This document shows positions 47,662 through 54,845 of a stretch of DNA of 64,000 bases, one piece after another. A program made the position numbers and the translations under genes. Source of the DNA: Deltaproteobacteria bacterium (GTDB lineage: Bacteria > Myxococcota > Myxococcia > Myxococcales > 40CM-4-68-19); assembly GCA_005879315.1 (NCBI GenBank), contig VBLC01000046.1, forward strand, positions 129,424-193,423. The letters are read 5' to 3'. The first letter of the stretch is position 1; every line of letters starts with the position of its first letter. A model generated the notes under the pieces. That model made no database searches. It had not been told where the DNA came from and was given only the letters and a program-made list of their open reading frames with translations.

Positions 47662-48372
47662 TCACATTTCGATGAGGCCTTTGCGCAGGCCCTCGGTGAC
47701 GGCCTCGACGCGGTTGGTGACGTCGAGCTTCTCGTAGATGTGCTCGAGATGCGTGCGCACGGTGGCGCGCGAGAGGCCGAGGACCTGCGCGGCCTCCTTG
47801 TTCGAGAGGCCCTTGGCGATGAGGCGGAGAATCTCGATCTCGCGCTCGGTGAGCGGCCGCATGGGGGGTTCTTCGCGGTGGCCGGGCGGCAGCGGCGCCT
47901 TCTCCGGCGGTGCACCTTCCTCCGGCACGTGGAAATGCCGCAGCAAGCGCCGCGCGAGATTGGGCTGGATGATCGTCCCGCCCGCCTTCACCTCGCGGAT
48001 GGCCTCGATCACTTTCTCCGACGGCGCGCCCTTCAAGAGATATCCGCTGGCGCCGGCCTTGACGGCCTCGATGACCTTCTCCTCTTCGTCGAAGATGGTG
48101 AAGACCAGCACCTCGATCTGGGGCCAGCGCTTCTTCACCTGGCGCGTGACCTCGATGCCGGTCATCCGCGGCAGGCCCAGGTCCTGGAGGATGACGTCGG
48201 GCGGCGGCTGCTTCTTCTCGAGGAGCTCCAGCGCGGCTTCGCCCGAGAGCGCGGTGCCGACCACCTCGATCTCCGGCGACTCCTGGAGGATCTTGAGCTG
48301 GTTCTTGAGGATCTGCGGCTGGTCCTCGACGATCAGGACCCTGATCCTCGGTGCTGCGGTTGCGGCGCTCAT
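47662..48372 (-). CDS. NarL/LuxR-family response regulator
   Basis: A 236-aa regulator starting at ATG 48372. It has a receiver domain with VLIVEDQ, the phospho-Asp region DVILQDLGLPRMTG, and Lys in YLLKGAPSEKV, followed by a Pro-rich linker and a C-terminal LuxR HTH (LTEREIEILRLIAKGLSNKEAAQVLGLSRATVRTHLEHIYEKL). It overlaps the kinase stop by ATGA, so it is the partner of the adjacent HisKA_3 kinase. Its targets are unknown. Confidence 0.93.
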   Translation of the reverse strand: MSAATAAPRIRVLIVEDQPQILKNQLKILQESPEIEVVGTALSGEAALELLEKKQPPPDVILQDLGLPRMTGIEVTRQVKKRWPQIEVLVFTIFDEEEKVIEAVKAGASGYLLKGAPSEKVIEAIREVKAGGTIIQPNLARRLLRHFHVPEEGAPPEKAPLPPGHREEPPMRPLTEREIEILRLIAKGLSNKEAAQVLGLSRATVRTHLEHIYEKLDVTNRVEAVTEGLRKGLIEM

Positions 48373-49691
48373 CTCGGTAGCTCCTCTCCGGCGTAAACGG
48401 TCAGCTCGATGCACGTCCCGTGGCCGGGCTCGGACGTCATCCGGATCTGTCCACCGACTTTGTGGGCGCGCTCGCGCATGTTGGCGAGCCCATAGTGTCC
48501 GTCGCGCGAGAGAGCGGCCGGCTCCTTGGGAAGGGCGAAGCCGTTGCCGCGGTCCTGCACGGTGAGCCGCGCCGAGCCGGAGGTGAAGGTGAGAGTGACC
48601 TCGACCGGCGTCCCCTTGCCGCAATGCTTGCTCACGTTGGTGAGCGATTCCTGCAGCACGCGGAAGAGAGCGAGCGCGCTCTCGGGCCCGACCTGCCGCT
48701 CGCGGCCGACGCGCGAGAAGCGCACCTCCAGCCGATGCCGGCCGCTCGCCATCTTGCAGTAGTCCGCGAGCGTGGCGACGAGGTCGAAGTCCTCCTTCAT
48801 CATCCGCAGCGAGCGGCGCAGCTCGTCCATCGAGTCTTCCGCCGCCTGGTGCAGGTCGGAGATCTCCTTGCGGATGGTGGGGAGGATGGCCGCGCGGGCC
48901 TCGCTCGTGCCCTGCAGGCGCGAGCGCACTTCCGAGCCGTCGATCATGTTGAGCAGATACTCGCTCTGGATGGCGACCGAGCTGAGCACTCCGCCCAGGC
49001 CGTCGTGGATCTCGCGCGCCAGGCGATTGCGCTCTTCCATCACCGCCATCTCCTTCAGCGCGAGCGAGAGCTTCTGCAGCTCGCGGTGCTTCATCCTGTC
49101 GCGCTCGTTCAGATAGACCATGACGTAGACGAGGATGCAGTTGATGGCCGAGTACCAGAGCAGGATGAAGATGTCGACCTGCACGACCGCGTGGCCGCCG
49201 AGGAGCTGATCGAGCTTGGCTACCGCCGGGAAGGTGAGCAGCGGCGGCACCACCGAGAGCGGAGTAGGGAAGAGCACGACGAAGAGCGTGGTGAAGAGCA
49301 GCTGCGCCGCGAGCAGCGGGCTGCGCAGGCCGCCGGTGACGCTCACCAGCCAGACGAGAACGCAGAGGTCGGCGCAGAGCGTGATGAAGGTGAGCGCGCG
49401 GCCGACCTTCTTCCTCGGCAGGAAGACGTAGTTGGCTGCGCTGTAGGCGACCATCACCAGATACACGGCGAAAGCGCCAGGCCCGCCGACGCCGAACGCC
49501 TGCGACCAGGCGGGCACGCCGATGACTCCGAGGCCGAGCACGAGGAAGGCGAGCCGGGCGTAGAAGAGAGCGCGCGCCCGGGTGATGAAGCGGTCCTCGG
49601 TGAACCGGGTGGCGCCGCCGATCTCCAACTTGCCGCCGAACAGACCGCCGCCCCGCGCGGGAGGGAGCACGGCAGCGGTCGTTTCGCTCAC
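48369..49691 (-). CDS. HisKA_3 sensor histidine kinase (NarX-like)
   Basis: A 440-aa membrane kinase with about five to six hydrophobic segments between residues 40 and 205 and no large periplasmic sensor. Then a helical linker and HisKA_3 motif EERNRLAREIHDGLGGVLSS. HATPase_c motifs are FRVLQESLTNVSKH, VQDRGNGFALP and HYGLANMRERAHKVGG. The encoded pair with the downstream regulator is a standard two-component system; the membrane part probably senses lipid or small-molecule changes. Confidence 0.92.
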   Translation of the reverse strand: MSETTAAVLPPARGGGLFGGKLEIGGATRFTEDRFITRARALFYARLAFLVLGLGVIGVPAWSQAFGVGGPGAFAVYLVMVAYSAANYVFLPRKKVGRALTFITLCADLCVLVWLVSVTGGLRSPLLAAQLLFTTLFVVLFPTPLSVVPPLLTFPAVAKLDQLLGGHAVVQVDIFILLWYSAINCILVYVMVYLNERDRMKHRELQKLSLALKEMAVMEERNRLAREIHDGLGGVLSSVAIQSEYLLNMIDGSEVRSRLQGTSEARAAILPTIRKEISDLHQAAEDSMDELRRSLRMMKEDFDLVATLADYCKMASGRHRLEVRFSRVGRERQVGPESALALFRVLQESLTNVSKHCGKGTPVEVTLTFTSGSARLTVQDRGNGFALPKEPAALSRDGHYGLANMRERAHKVGGQIRMTSEPGHGTCIELTVYAGEELPR

Positions 49692-49999: not shown

Positions 50000-50626
50000 G
50001 TGACGCCGCTTCTGCGATGGGACAGCGCGCTGCTCAAGCTCGAGCTTCTCGGCGACCCGCGTCTGGCCTGGCCCGGCGGAGTGACGCTCTCGGGCAACCA
50101 GGCGCTGGCGGCGGCGCAGTCTGCGCGCGGGCTCATCGCAGTCGCGCTGCGCGGGGTGGTGACGCACGAGATGCGCCAGGCGCTGCGGCTTTGGGGAGCG
50201 ACGCTGCTGCCTTCTGCGCCGCCCGCGCCGGATCTGTCGGCGGAGTTCGCGCGCACGCTCGGGACGGAGCTGGCCGCCGAGCTTTCGCAGGAGCCGCCGC
50301 TTCTCGTCGCTCCCGCAGGTGAAGCGTCGATGCTGCTCGGCGCGCTGCGCGCATTGCGGGCGAGATGGCCGAAAGTGCGCGGCGTGGCTTTGGTCGCTGG
50401 CGACGAAGAGCTCCCCGATCTGCCCCGCGAGGCTCCCGAGGGAGTGGACCGGCTCGCCATCTCCTGCGCTCAGGCTCGCGACGCTCGTGCGAGAGTCGCG
50501 CGCGAGCTGGGTCTTCTCGCCGGCCATGCCTCGGCTGCGGCAGCGGCGTATGCGCAAGAGCACGGGGGAGTCGCTCTCGTGACCGGACCGGGCGAGCGCG
50601 AGTTCTCCCTCGATCCTCCGAGATGA
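50000..50626 (+). CDS. Degenerate cysteine-synthase-fold protein lacking the PLP lysine
   Basis: A 208-aa protein starting at GTG. Compared by eye with the CysM gene 1.8 kb downstream: TPLLRW and LKLELLGDP correspond to TPLVRL and AKLEWFNP, LSGNQAL to TSGNTGI, and RVARELGLLAGHASAAAAAYA to RLARDEGLFAGHSAGAAAFGA. The segment carrying the PLP lysine (GGSVKDR) is deleted, and the GTGGT phosphate loop is gone, so it cannot bind PLP normally. It is coupled to the E1 gene (ATGA). Probable role is regulatory or structural, as a pseudoenzyme of the sulfur-carrier locus. Confidence 0.7.
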   Translation: MTPLLRWDSALLKLELLGDPRLAWPGGVTLSGNQALAAAQSARGLIAVALRGVVTHEMRQALRLWGATLLPSAPPAPDLSAEFARTLGTELAAELSQEPPLLVAPAGEASMLLGALRALRARWPKVRGVALVAGDEELPDLPREAPEGVDRLAISCAQARDARARVARELGLLAGHASAAAAAYAQEHGGVALVTGPGEREFSLDPPR

Positions 50627-51270
50627 AGACGATTCTCATTCTCGGTGTCGGTGGCCTGGGGTGCCCCGCTGCGCTCGCGCTGAAAGAGGCTGGTGTGCCG
50701 CTGCGGCTGGTATTGGTCGACCCCGATCGGGTCGAGCGCTCGAACCTGGCTCGCCAGATCCTCTTCAGCGAAGCGGACGTCGGCCAGCCCAAGGCGGAAG
50801 TCGCCGCGCGGAAGCTGGGAGCCGAGGCGCGCGTCCTGCGCTTCGAGCCGTCTACAGCGGCAGACTTGCTCCGGGGCTGCGACGTCCTCCTCGACGGCAC
50901 CGATGACTTCGCCACGCGCTTTCTCGCCAACGACGAGGCCGTCCGGCGCCGGATTCCATTGGTGCACGGCGCCGCGCTCGGCTGGACCGGCCAGCTTCTC
51001 ACTGTCCTCCCTGGCCGCAGCGCCTGCCTGCGCTGCTTCTTCGAAGGGCCGCCGGCGCCGGGTGCGCTGCCTACCTGCGCGGAGGCGGGCGTGCTCGCAC
51101 CTCTCTGTGGAGCCGTCGGCGCCGCCATGGCCGAGGCGGCCCTGGCTGTCCTCTCGGGCAAGGCGAAGGCGGGCGTCCTGCGCCGCTGGGATGCCCGGCG
51201 CGGAGCCGAGCGTCCGCTGGCGCTCCGCCGCGATCCGCTCTGCGCCGTCTGCGCAGGCGTGGCATCCTAG
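50623..51270 (+). CDS. ThiF/MoeB/MoeZ-type E1 enzyme, short form
   Basis: A 215-aa adenylating enzyme. It starts directly at the nucleotide-binding strand (MKTILILGVGGLGCPAALAL), and keeps DPDRVERSNLARQILF, DVGQPKAEVAARKL, DGTDDFATRFLAND and two CxxC pairs (CLRC, CAVC) for zinc. It would activate the C-terminal Gly of the sulfur carrier with ATP. Unlike MoeB/ThiF it lacks the N-terminal helix with RYSR(H/Q), which in MoeB supplies an Arg to the partner active site; that segment appears in the separate gene at 51560. There is no rhodanese domain. Track ORF from 50365 is an extension in another gene. Confidence 0.85.
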   Translation: MKTILILGVGGLGCPAALALKEAGVPLRLVLVDPDRVERSNLARQILFSEADVGQPKAEVAARKLGAEARVLRFEPSTAADLLRGCDVLLDGTDDFATRFLANDEAVRRRIPLVHGAALGWTGQLLTVLPGRSACLRCFFEGPPAPGALPTCAEAGVLAPLCGAVGAAMAEAALAVLSGKAKAGVLRRWDARRGAERPLALRRDPLCAVCAGVAS

Positions 51271-51284
51271 AGGCGGAGGAACCG

Positions 51285-51566
51285 ATGCCCATCACCGTCA
51301 AGATTCCCGCGCCGCTCCGGTCGCTGACCGCCAACCAGAGCGAAGTGGCCGTCGAGAACGCGGCCACCGTCCAGGACGCCCTGGAAGAGCTGTCGCGCAA
51401 ATACCCGGGGCTCAAGGACCGCTTGCTCGACGAGAAGGGCGCCCTGCGCCGCTACGTGAACCTGTTCCGCAACGACGAGGACATCCGCCACGGCCGGGGG
51501 CTGGCCACGTCGCTCGCGGAGGGCGACAAGCTCACCATCGTGCCGGCCATCGCGGGCGGATGCTGA
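51285..51566 (+). CDS. CysO/MoaD-like sulfur carrier protein ending GGC
   Basis: A 93-aa beta-grasp protein. MPITVKIPAPLRSLTANQSEVAV, VNLFRNDEDIRHGRGLATSLAEGDKLTIVPAIAGGC resemble Mycobacterium CysO, which carries a thiocarboxylate on its final Gly. Here a Cys is encoded after GG (GCG GGC GGA TGC TGA), so the protein must be trimmed before activation, or the Cys has another role. The JAMM protease encoded four genes on could remove it. The last codons overlap the start of the next gene. Confidence 0.88.
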   Translation: MPITVKIPAPLRSLTANQSEVAVENAATVQDALEELSRKYPGLKDRLLDEKGALRRYVNLFRNDEDIRHGRGLATSLAEGDKLTIVPAIAGGC

Positions 51567-51865
51567 GTCCCGAGCAGCAGGAGCGGTATTCGCGCCATCT
51601 CCTTCTCGACGGGCTCGATCAGGAGAAGCTGCTGGCCGCGGCCATCCGCGTCCGCGGCACGACCCGCGCGGCGCGCTGGGCCGCGAGGTATCTGGCGGCG
51701 AGCGGGGTGGGTCGGCTCATCGTCGACGAGCCCTCCTGGGAGCCTGAGTTGCGCGCGCTCGGCCCGTGGCTGCAGCTGGGCGGCGAGGCGCGCATGGAGA
51801 TCGCGCCGCAGGGCGAACCCTTCGACGGCGCCTGGGCTGCGCTGGAAGTCGTGCGTGGTCTTTGA
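51560..51865 (+). CDS. Truncated E1-like protein with the RYSRH helix but dead Rossmann
   Basis: A 101-aa protein, start ATG 51560 inside the carrier stop region. MLSPEQQERYSRHLLLDGLDQEKLLAA is the N-terminal helix of MoeB/ThiF proteins. The following IRVRGTTRAARWAARYLAASGVGRLIVDE lines up with VLVVGAGGLGSPAALYLAAAGVG but has lost the Gly-rich ATP loop. The rest is short and carries no catalytic residues. It overlaps CysM by 11 bases. The complementary content of this protein and the short E1 suggests they form one enzyme. The track lists it only inside a longer frame (50693..51865). Confidence 0.7.
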   Translation: MLSPEQQERYSRHLLLDGLDQEKLLAAAIRVRGTTRAARWAARYLAASGVGRLIVDEPSWEPELRALGPWLQLGGEARMEIAPQGEPFDGAWAALEVVRGL

Positions 51866-52742
51866 TTCCCTCGCCGGCGCAGTCGGCAACACCCCTTTGG
51901 TGAGGCTGAGATCGCTCGAGCCCGGCGGGGTGGAGATCCACGCGAAATTGGAGTGGTTCAATCCCGGCGGCAGCGTGAAGGACCGCGCCGGACTGCAGAT
52001 CATCCGCGAGAGCGTCGAGAAGCTGCGCGGCCGGACGTTGATCGACTCGACCAGCGGCAACACCGGGATCGCCTACGCCTGGATCGGCGCGGCGCTGCGC
52101 GTGCCGGTGGCGCTGGTCATGCCGGAAAACGTGTCTGAAGCGCGCAAGCGCATCGTCCGCGCCTTTGGAGCGCAGGTCATCTATTCCGATCCGCTCGAGA
52201 CCTCCGACGGCGCCATCCGCCTGGCGCGCCAGCTGGTGCGCGAGCAACCCGATCGCTGGTTCTACGCCGATCAGTACTCCAACGAAGCGAACCCGCGCGC
52301 CCACGAGCTGGGCACGGCGCGAGAGATCTGGGACCAGACCGGCGGCCGGGTGACTCATGCAGTGGTCGGAATCGGCACCGGCGGCACCATCATGGGAGTC
52401 GGCCGCGGCCTGCGCGCGCGCAACCGGCGCGTGCAGATCGTCGCCGTCGAGCCGGCGGAAGCGCTTCACGGCCTGGAGGGCCTCAAGCACATGCCCTCGT
52501 CGATCGTGCCCGCCATCTACAAGGAGTCCGAGCTGGACCGGAAGCTCTCGATCCCCACCGATGCCGGCTGGGACATGGCCGAGCGGCTCGCGCGCGACGA
52601 GGGCCTCTTCGCCGGCCACAGCGCCGGCGCGGCCGCCTTCGGCGCACAGCTGGTGGCGCGCGAGATCGCCGAGCGAGGCGAGACCGGCGTCGTCGTCACG
52701 CTGTTCCCCGACCGCGCCGACCGTTACATTGCCCCGGCATGA
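51855..52742 (+). CDS. cysM: CysM-type cysteine synthase (sulfur-carrier dependent, by context)
   Basis: A 295-aa PLP enzyme from GTG 51855. GNTPLVRL, the PLP lysine K42 in GGSVKDRAG, substrate loop STSGNTGIAYAW, phosphate loop GIGTGGTIMG and LFAGHSAGAAAFGA are all intact. In Mycobacterium, CysM uses CysO thiocarboxylate and O-phosphoserine. Here CysO-like and JAMM genes flank it, so I infer the same chemistry, though O-acetylserine use cannot be excluded by eye. It overlaps both neighbours. Confidence 0.9.
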   Translation: MVFDSLAGAVGNTPLVRLRSLEPGGVEIHAKLEWFNPGGSVKDRAGLQIIRESVEKLRGRTLIDSTSGNTGIAYAWIGAALRVPVALVMPENVSEARKRIVRAFGAQVIYSDPLETSDGAIRLARQLVREQPDRWFYADQYSNEANPRAHELGTAREIWDQTGGRVTHAVVGIGTGGTIMGVGRGLRARNRRVQIVAVEPAEALHGLEGLKHMPSSIVPAIYKESELDRKLSIPTDAGWDMAERLARDEGLFAGHSAGAAAFGAQLVAREIAERGETGVVVTLFPDRADRYIAPA

Positions 52743-53182
52743 TCGCGCCGGAGGTGCTCCGCCAGATCGCCGCGCACGCGCGCTCGACCTATCCGGCCGA
52801 GTGTTGTGGGCTCTTGTTGCGCGACCGGAGCGGCGCGATCTCTTTCCGGCCGATCCCCAACATCGCCGGCTCGCCGGAAGCGCGGCCCACCAGCTCGCGC
52901 ACCGCTCGCGACGGATATGTGATGGATCCGAAGGCGCTGCTTTCGGCAATGCAGGAAGGCGACCTTTGGGCCATCGTCCATAGCCATCCTGACGTCGGTG
53001 CCTATTTCTCTAAAGAAGACAGAGACATGGCGCTAGGCGATGGGGAGGAGCCACTCTGGCCCGGCGTGCGATATCTGGTCGTTTCGGTGCGCGCCGGGCG
53101 CGTGGAGGGCGCCCGCATCTATACCTGGGATAGTTCCCGCGGCGATTTTGCAGAAGAAGAAGTTATCGGAATAATCGAATAG
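52739..53182 (+). CDS. JAMM/Mov34 metalloprotease (Mec+-like)
   Basis: A 147-aa zinc protease with all catalytic residues: E21 in PAECCGLLL, H81-S-H83, S91 and D94 in the HSHxxxxxxxSxxD pattern. Mec+ of Mycobacterium releases cysteine from CysO-cysteine by cutting after GG. The carrier in this locus already has GG-Cys encoded, so this enzyme probably matures it as well. Coupled to CysM by ATGA. The last 40 bases and the following 52-base spacer are AT-rich compared with the rest of the locus. Confidence 0.9.
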   Translation: MIAPEVLRQIAAHARSTYPAECCGLLLRDRSGAISFRPIPNIAGSPEARPTSSRTARDGYVMDPKALLSAMQEGDLWAIVHSHPDVGAYFSKEDRDMALGDGEEPLWPGVRYLVVSVRAGRVEGARIYTWDSSRGDFAEEEVIGIIE

Positions 53183-53234
53183 ACATTCATTAGGCGCGAA
53201 TGTATGGTGCGCCAATCTCTTGGAGCGCACCGCG

Positions 53235-54026
53235 ATGAATCTCGGCAGCTCGTCGAATGGCTTCACCGTCTGGTTTACCGGAATGAGCGGCGCCGGCAAA
53301 TCGACGCTGGCGCAGGGTCTGGCTAACCGCCTGCGACGACTGGGGAAAATAGTCGACGTGATGGACGGCCCGGAAGTCGAGCAGATGCTCGGGGTCGGCA
53401 AGGGCGGCACCAAGGACGAGCGCAATGCCGAGGCGCGCAAGCTGGCCTGGGTTTGCAAGCTCGTGACGCGGGGCGGCGGAACCATTCTGCAATCGGCCAT
53501 CGAGAGTCCCTATCGCGAAACCCGCGACGAGGCGCGGCGGCAGATCGGCCGGTTCGCCGAGGTCTTCGTGGAGTGCCCCATCGAAACACTCATCCATCGC
53601 GACCGGAGCGGCCGCTACAAGCGCGCGCTCGCCGGCGAGTTGAAGACGCTCGTCGGCATCACCGAGCCTTACGAGCCGCCGGTGCATCCGGAGGTGGTCG
53701 TCGACACCAGCAAGCACTCGGTCGACGAAGCCGTCGAACACATCCTCGGCCAGCTCGTCGCGCAGCGGCTGCTCGATCCGGAGTTCGCCGCCTTGAAATC
53801 GCGGCCGCGCCTGCAGGCGCGCGCGCCGCTGCCCGAGCAGCCGAAGCCTGCGGCGGCGAAGGTGGAGAAGCCTCGTCTCGCCAAGGTGAAGAAGCTGCGG
53901 CAGCACAAGGCGGCCAAGCCTTCCAAGCCGGCCAAGGCGCAGCGGCGGGCGCCGGCGCGCAAGTCGGCGGCCGCGCGCACGGCGCGGGTGGGGCCACAGC
54001 GGCGCGGCGGAAAGCGCAAGCGCTGA
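53235..54026 (+). CDS. APS-kinase-like protein with lysine-rich tail
   Basis: A 263-aa protein; ATG 53235 (MNLGSSSNGFTVWFTGMSG) is preferred over TTG 53220. Residues 1-175 are an APS-kinase fold: GMSGAGKST P-loop, DVMDGPEVEQML, ESPYRETRDEARRQIG, EVFVECPIETLIHRD, GITEPYEPPVHPEVVVDT. Some positions differ from active CysC, such as KLAW in place of the usual IRRIGF and TILQSAIES in place of the usual VICAAISP. Residues about 205-263 are Lys/Arg/Ala/Pro-rich (AAKPSKPAKAQRRAPARKSAA), like histone H1 tails. Catalysis is plausible, but the tail suggests nucleic acid or protein binding. Confidence 0.8.
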   Translation: MNLGSSSNGFTVWFTGMSGAGKSTLAQGLANRLRRLGKIVDVMDGPEVEQMLGVGKGGTKDERNAEARKLAWVCKLVTRGGGTILQSAIESPYRETRDEARRQIGRFAEVFVECPIETLIHRDRSGRYKRALAGELKTLVGITEPYEPPVHPEVVVDTSKHSVDEAVEHILGQLVAQRLLDPEFAALKSRPRLQARAPLPEQPKPAAAKVEKPRLAKVKKLRQHKAAKPSKPAKAQRRAPARKSAAARTARVGPQRRGGKRKR

Positions 54027-54029
54027 GCC

Positions 54030-54845
54030 ATGCTGCAGGCCAAGCGCGAGGCGGCGCTGCAGCGCCTGCGCGGGCTGGGCAGCGCGCTGGTGGCCTATTC
54101 GGGCGGCGTTGATTCGGCGCTGCTCCTGGCGCTGGCGCGCGAGGCCTTGGGAGCGCGAGCCGTCGCTTTCACCGCCGTTTCGCCGGCCGTGGCGCCCGAT
54201 GAGCTGGAGGGCGCGCGCTCTCTCGCGCAGGAGCTGGGCGTCGAGCACGTCGAGCGCGCCTCGGGTGAGCTGGAGGATCCCCACTACGCTCAAAATCCCG
54301 TCGACCGCTGCTACTTCTGCAAGACCGAGCTGTACCGGCTGGCCGAAGACGAGGCCCGGGCGCGCGGGCTCGCCGCCGTCGTGGCGGGGACGAATGCGGA
54401 TGAGCTCCTCGACTACCGCCCAGGCCTGCGCGCAGCGCATGAGCACCAGGTGGTCCAGCCGCTTGCCGAGGCGGGGTTGAGCAAGGCGGAGATCCGCCAG
54501 CTGAGCCGCGAGATGGGCCTGCCCACCTGGGACAAGCCGCAGCAGCCCTGCCTCTCCTCGCGCATTCCCTACGGCACGGAGGTGACGGCCGAGCGGCTCG
54601 CCCAGCTGGCGCGCAGCGAGATGGCCCTGCGCGCTCTCGGTCTGCGCGAATTTCGCGTCCGGTACCACGGCGACGTCGCCCGCATCGAGGTCGCCGAGGG
54701 AGAGCTGGACCAGCTCCTGCGCGTCCGCGACCAAATCGCGCGAGTTCTAAAAGAATCCGGCTTCAAGTTCGTCAGCCTCGACCTCGAGCCCTTCCGCAGC
54801 GGCCGGCTCAACGAAGCGGCTGGCCTCGTGCCTCTCCGCCGCTGA
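54030..54845 (+). CDS. larE: LarE-family ATP-dependent sulfur transferase
   Basis: A 271-aa PP-loop protein. AYSGGVDSALLLALA is the ATP-binding loop, and DRCYFCKTELY plus QQPCLSSRIPYG provide three Cys in the positions used for a [4Fe-4S] cluster in LarE proteins of the multi-Cys type. LarE normally supplies sulfur for the nickel-pincer cofactor of lactate racemase; no larB or larC is present. In this operon it may deliver sulfur to the carrier or tRNA-like acceptors. Four bases separate it from the APS-kinase-like gene. Confidence 0.88.
   Translation: MLQAKREAALQRLRGLGSALVAYSGGVDSALLLALAREALGARAVAFTAVSPAVAPDELEGARSLAQELGVEHVERASGELEDPHYAQNPVDRCYFCKTELYRLAEDEARARGLAAVVAGTNADELLDYRPGLRAAHEHQVVQPLAEAGLSKAEIRQLSREMGLPTWDKPQQPCLSSRIPYGTEVTAERLAQLARSEMALRALGLREFRVRYHGDVARIEVAEGELDQLLRVRDQIARVLKESGFKFVSLDLEPFRSGRLNEAAGLVPLRR

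Follow-up and report, generated by a model that had tools for sequence, protein, structure and literature searches.

A basic-tailed APS-kinase-like protein with an altered APS site in a myxobacterial sulfur-carrier operon

What does a protein of the adenylyl-sulfate (APS) kinase family do in a genome in which no ATP sulfurylase is found, and why does it end in a long basic tail? The question is raised by one gene in a 64,000-nucleotide stretch of a Myxococcota genome (the window). The gene (53235..54026, + strand; ORF list, NCBIfam and Pfam profiles, alignment) encodes a tail-type APS-kinase-like protein of 263 residues, with an ATG start at 53235 and a stop codon at 54024-54026; an alternative TTG start at 53220 would give a protein five residues longer. 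The initial annotation described it as an APS-kinase-like domain fused to a histone-H1-like tail, a description borne out by the PF01583 and TIGR00455 matches and by the composition of the tail.

The APS-kinase-fold domain (residues 8-177; 53256..53765, +; alignment and Foldseek fold match) matches PF01583 with 132 bits over residues 9-157 and passes NCBIfam TIGR00455 (apsK) at 151.8 bits, the cut-off being 138.7. Foldseek places the core closest to APS kinases, and the nearest folds are APS kinases complexed with APS (top match 5cb8, TMt 0.92, 40% identity). The tail (residues ~187-263; 53793..54023, +; composition and predicted model) is rich in Lys, Arg, Ala, and Pro and includes a conserved KSAAARTARV segment and a GGKRKR end. 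In an AlphaFold2 model made from 17 related sequences, the core is confident and the tail is disordered, with ten-residue pLDDT means of ~46-54. By composition and predicted model, the tail is thus basic, disordered, and K/A/P-rich, as is expected of a histone-H1-like tail.

The absence of an ATP sulfurylase gene, first remarked for the window, extends to the whole host genome (G000), a MAG that is 97.55% complete in 125 contigs. The PF01507 family covers both CysD and CysH. Family searches of the host genome found neither PF01747 (ATP sulfurylase) nor PF01507, and hence no recognised CysD, CysH, or PAPS reductase; because the absences rest on such searches in a fragmented MAG, that of the sulfurylase is not absolute. 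The single APS_kinase-family match in the genome is the window kinase. Among 195 genomes of the phylum, the kinase profile matches in 162, PF01507 in 117, and PF01747 in 32, and some two dozen genomes of the same order, each at least 90% complete (lists compared by hand), have a kinase match with neither sulfurylase family. These include two single-contig genomes, G031 (locus L076) and G161 (locus L072), both with tail-type kinases. A sulfite-reductase-like protein is present in the host genome, though no sulfate-activation or PAPS reductase gene was found there: two NIR_SIR matches (G000:C88:10351-11517; L020, L021) fall in one 1029-residue open frame.

Active-site residues are numbered here as in Mycobacterium tuberculosis CysC; they include N500, an extrapolated position whose Asn we take to bind APS and which is absent from the roles assigned in the study of that enzyme. 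That study assigns the Mg water to D478 and, as a likely role, that of base to D480; the phosphosulfate contacts are R483 and R497, the adenine of APS lies between F492 and F576, R559 packs against the adenine of ATP, and K562 stabilises the transition state (PMC4373884). By alignment, the window kinase keeps the P-loop Lys, D44 (=D478), R63 (=R497), and R122 (=R559), together with the SPY motif, and is changed at P46 (=D480), E49 (=R483), G58 (=F492), E66 (=N500), S125 (=K562), and L139 (=F576). The earlier statement that the P-loop and Asp motifs are kept therefore holds for the P-loop (GMSGAGKST) and for the first, Mg-binding Asp of the D-G-D motif (D44), but not for the second, the catalytic-base Asp, which is Pro (P46).

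The same pattern runs through 55 tail-type proteins tabulated with 15 canonical ones. R559 is kept in 55/55 tail-type members, R497 in 54/55, and D478 in 53/55, whereas F492 survives in none of the 55, N500 in one, R483 in three, and K562 in about four; D480 is lost in about two thirds (~17 have it), and in 41/55 position 564 is occupied by Arg or Lys. The canonical APS kinases retain the APS-side residues in all 15 cases, with Tyr replacing F492 in two, and likewise R559, R497, and D478. Of 60 columns invariant in the canonical proteins, 30 hold in at least 90% of the tail clade and 11 in less than 30%, the latter including R483, N500, and K562. The lid motifs RD..G.YK..A..GE and GI.EPYEPP are strongly kept. 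A conserved acidic residue at 481 was considered as a clade signature and dropped, as Glu also occurs there in canonical Myxococcota CysC.

Compared with APS kinases (CysC/PAPSS kinase domain; PF01583, TIGR00455), the window kinase thus shares the fold, P-loop, Mg Asp, adenine-stacking Arg, R497, and lid motifs, but it lacks R483, F492, N500, and K562 (D480 is often lost in its clade), adds a basic disordered tail, and belongs to a genome in which no sulfurylase was found. Mg-ATP binding is expected from the sequence, since the P-loop, D44, and R122 are kept; APS kinase activity is unlikely, since the base Asp, R483, F492, and K562 are all gone. The initial annotation held that inactivity on APS would speak against an essential role of the fusion; such inactivity is indeed predicted, but it would point to a new role rather than to an unimportant fusion.

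In a tree of 73 kinases, the 55 tail-type proteins form one side of a branch with support 97/95, by which the tail-type kinase is one monophyletic family across the Myxococcota order. The clade spans f1 to f10 (working labels for locus families; L012, from Archangiaceae, is in f6) and roughly tracks host families. The close relatives are mostly MAGs, with start codons assigned by script in the fetched sequences. Canonical tail-less APS kinase paralogues occur beside the tail-type kinase in f6 genomes (L082-L088, L090, L091). No published description of the family was found in the open-access literature.

These data bear on one rival explanation, that the protein is a genuine, divergent APS kinase that makes PAPS and whose low-complexity tail is irrelevant. 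The TIGR00455 score, the 5cb8 fold with bound APS, and the retention of R497 and the SPY motif are what such an enzyme would show. This reading is nonetheless very unlikely, given the loss of R483, F492, N500, K562, and often D480, the lack of any APS source found in the host genome, the separate canonical CysC of many relatives, and the retention of the kinase where both ATP-sulfurylase families are missing.

The tail, for its part, is a constant feature of the family. It is present in 54/54 complete tail-type orthologues, with a median of 35% K+R and 3% D+E and a length, set by a scripted cut, of 30-241 residues; it is absent from canonical CysC (0/15, nine of the 15 from same-order genomes). 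This was the comparison proposed at the outset, where absence of the tail from most orthologues was to count against the fusion, and the outcome is clearly the opposite. A basic C-terminus is found in all 54 (shuffle mean 17.6/54) and the motif [AP][ATV][AT]R[ATK]AR in 29/54 tails (shuffle mean 0.3), both counts being inflated by kinship among the sequences. Scripted gene prediction on the window and related loci gave 337 control genes; basic low-complexity tails occur in 29 of them, of which ~25 are the tail-type kinase itself. The tail thus characterises this gene and not the genomes at large, and the control rejects the idea of a general trait of GC-rich genomes. An assembly artefact was also rejected, as the tail occurs in single-contig genomes. 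Among close relatives, dN/dS is ~0.08-0.15 in the kinase domain versus 0.33-0.62 in the tail, which indicates strong purifying selection on the domain and faster, yet still constrained, evolution of the tail. A polycationic disordered tail would most simply be a tether to a polyanion.

The gene order of the window operon, all on the + strand, is truncated PALP, ThiF, MoaD, pseudo-E1, CysM, JAMM, kinase, and LarE. At its head, a truncated, CysM-like PALP paralogue (50000..50626; 32 bits, below the cut-off of 35) is probably non-catalytic; it is conserved in the locus family to which the window belongs. It is followed by a ThiF/MoeB-like E1 (50623..51270; profiles) and a MoaD/CysO/SAMP1-like sulfur carrier (51285..51566; NCBIfam and Pfam profiles). 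After the pseudo-E1 come a CysM-type cysteine synthase (51855..52742) and a JAMM/JAB metalloprotease of Mec+/desampylase-like type (52739..53182), both assigned by NCBIfam and Pfam profiles. The larE gene, encoding an ATP-dependent sulfur transferase of the CXXC-C type (CYFC ... PCLSS; 54030..54845; NCBIfam profile, synteny, motif), starts 3 nt after the kinase stop codon. Upstream, and transcribed divergently, is a two-component pair of response regulator and histidine kinase (47662..49691, - strand; ORFs, synteny), which is syntenic across most of the order.

Across the order, the usual operon partners of the kinase are ThiF, a degenerate ThiF, TusA, MoaD, and the JAMM protease; TusA was not seen in the window itself. 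The larE gene is immediately downstream of the kinase in 30/31 loci with a continuing contig (the exception is L070). A place in the same operon is evidence of co-regulation and does not establish a common reaction; the constant link of the kinase to LarE and sulfur carriers suggests that it serves a step in a sulfur relay. In several f2 loci MoaD and JAMM were not found; these retain ThiF, TusA, pseudo-E1, kinase, and LarE and add a weakly DsrE-like gene, which suggests a DsrE/TusA-type sulfur relay. This short gene precedes ThiF-TusA in f2 genomes (e.g., L076:5507-5881).

CysO-CysM-Mec+ is a cysteine biosynthesis pathway of Mycobacterium, and the window shares with it the genes for E1, a MoaD-GG carrier, CysM, and JAMM. 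These neighbours would suit an L-serine kinase supplying O-phosphoserine to CysM in a CysO-type pathway. CysM, however, is found at the locus in the window's own family, L069, and L073 and is missing in most f6 members and in every kinase-bearing f2 member. With CysM thus lacking at the locus through most of the order, a serine kinase feeding CysM was rejected as the general role; it is a most unlikely reading of the window kinase. The locus further differs from the pathway as described in its kinase, LarE, TusA, and pseudo-E1.

The MoaD protein, whose SAMP1 score exceeds the cut-off (78.1 vs 60), raises another possibility: the Lys-rich tail could be the target of MoaD conjugation, and the kinase would be switched by a ubiquitin-like modification and its removal by JAMM. 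The JAMM protein resembles a desampylase, albeit with a score under the cut-off, and an E1 is present with a second E1-like partner. Against this stand the persistence of the tail in several f2 genomes with no MoaD or JAMM found at the locus, the lack of any E2-like gene noticed, and the capacity of MoaD to serve as a plain sulfur carrier, all of which leave tail conjugation a decidedly improbable account. MoaD ends in AIAGGC in the window and in GG or GGR in relatives; an extra residue beyond GG would have to be removed, a task that might fall to the neighbouring JAMM protease.

Among described arrangements, the nearest is row 4e of Table 1 in Iyer et al. 2006, in which ThiS/MoaD, JAB, E1, SirA, and adenylylsulfate kinase genes accompany sulfate transporters, ATP sulfurylase, and PAPS reductase (PMC1779556). 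In row 4e (PMC1779556) as at the tail-type locus, a single operon unites a rhodanese-less E1, MoaD, JAB, TusA/SirA (in relatives of the window), and a homologue of APS kinase. Unlike row 4e, the tail-type operon has no sulfate transporter, ATP sulfurylase, PAPS reductase, or sulfite reductase that could be found, its kinase is modified and tailed, and LarE and pseudo-E1 are added. The tail-type kinase probably descends from an APS kinase that once belonged to a sulfate-assimilation operon; the ancestral operon would have been row 4e-like and then have lost its sulfate-activation genes.

With regard to LarE, the CXXC-C motif is the mark of [4Fe-4S] enzymes that receive their sulfur from an external source, and the Thermotoga [4Fe-4S] LarE was shown to take sulfur from IscS (PMC9283937). 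The window LarE shares the CXXC-C motif with the Thermotoga enzyme, as well as a LarC elsewhere in the host genome; it differs in its association with a kinase and a MoaD/TusA/E1 relay. A LarC match was obtained in 175/195 genomes, the host included. A sacrificial LarE regenerated by MoaD thiocarboxylate was considered and dropped, as this LarE carries the motif of the [4Fe-4S] type.

The two E1-like genes appear to be complementary. The window ThiF begins directly with the Rossmann motif and has no N-terminal arginine-finger helix, and the pseudo-E1 (51560..51865, +; sequence comparison), shrunken to ~100 aa, is a ThiF N-terminus with the arginine-finger motif QERYSRHLLL. Full-length pseudo-E1 relatives occur in L060, L072, and L076; in the relatives compared (L060:9192-9833, L072:8731-9381, L076:6990-7682), the degenerate ThiF paralogue keeps RYSRQ/H-ILL, and the neighbouring ThiF has no arginine-finger helix. 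From sequence, the pair looks like a bacterial heterodimeric E1. The eukaryotic SUMO and NEDD8 E1s are heterodimeric; no obvious precedent for the pseudo-E1 was found among the open-access papers listed. A bolder and improbable proposal makes the locus a conserved myxobacterial sulfur-relay machine, in which pseudo-ThiF supplies the arginine-finger helix to the catalytic ThiF of a heterodimeric E1, as in SUMO/NEDD8 E1s, and the tailed kinase is a dedicated new enzyme that phosphorylates a nickel-pincer thio-cofactor nucleotide intermediate or a nucleic acid, its basic tail delivering the acceptor.

The explanation favoured here, to which we give slightly better than even chances, is that the window kinase is a neofunctionalised paralogue of APS kinase: it retains ATP binding, has lost APS recognition, has gained a basic tail, and serves the sulfur-relay/LarE route, either by acting on a different acceptor or as a regulator that binds ATP. 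In such a mechanism, the P-loop would bind Mg-ATP and the lid would close as in APS kinases; phosphate would pass to an acceptor other than APS, for which a nucleotide or an intermediate of the sulfur-relay/LarE (nickel-pincer) pathway is a likelier candidate than APS. Alternatively, the kinase may merely sense ATP and scaffold the relay. The tail would act as an electrostatic tether to a polyanion (a nucleic acid or an acidic partner protein) and so hold the kinase at the site of the sulfur-transfer complex.

The chief competitor, appreciably less probable though a real possibility, is a pseudokinase that binds ATP and transfers nothing, an energy-sensing scaffold of the E1/MoaD/LarE relay held in place by its basic tail. 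In its favour, most members lack the catalytic Lys and most lack the base Asp, yet the ATP site is intact, and other apparently degraded paralogues (truncated PALP, pseudo-E1) share the operon. Since K562 is missing from the majority and D480 from about two thirds, the family may have given up phosphoryl transfer altogether, a point against the favoured explanation. Pure scaffolds, however, usually drift in the lid motifs that are strongly kept here, and the basic residue at 564 (41/55) may stand in for K562. The K562 of about four members and the D480 of ~17 also count against the neofunctionalised paralogue.

A curated model labels tail-type proteins as adenylyl-sulfate kinase across an order of bacteria, and metabolic reconstructions based on annotation alone may assign sulfate activation to genomes with no known ATP sulfurylase. 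If the neofunctionalised reading is true, the family shows clearly how an APS kinase can be turned to a different acceptor, and in many f6 members the true CysC of the same genome provides a natural internal control; the family also raises the question of which phosphorylation or ATP-sensing step a MoaD/TusA/LarE relay needs, and why it needs a polycationic tail.

A separate divergent clade is formed by APS-kinase-like proteins of Planctomycetota (L015:3493-4092, L016:1973-2572, L017:1017-1616). In these, DSGRIRQ replaces DGDxxR, K562 is lost, and the C-terminus reads ...RLxDLGY[IL]; the genes lie outside any sulfur operon seen.
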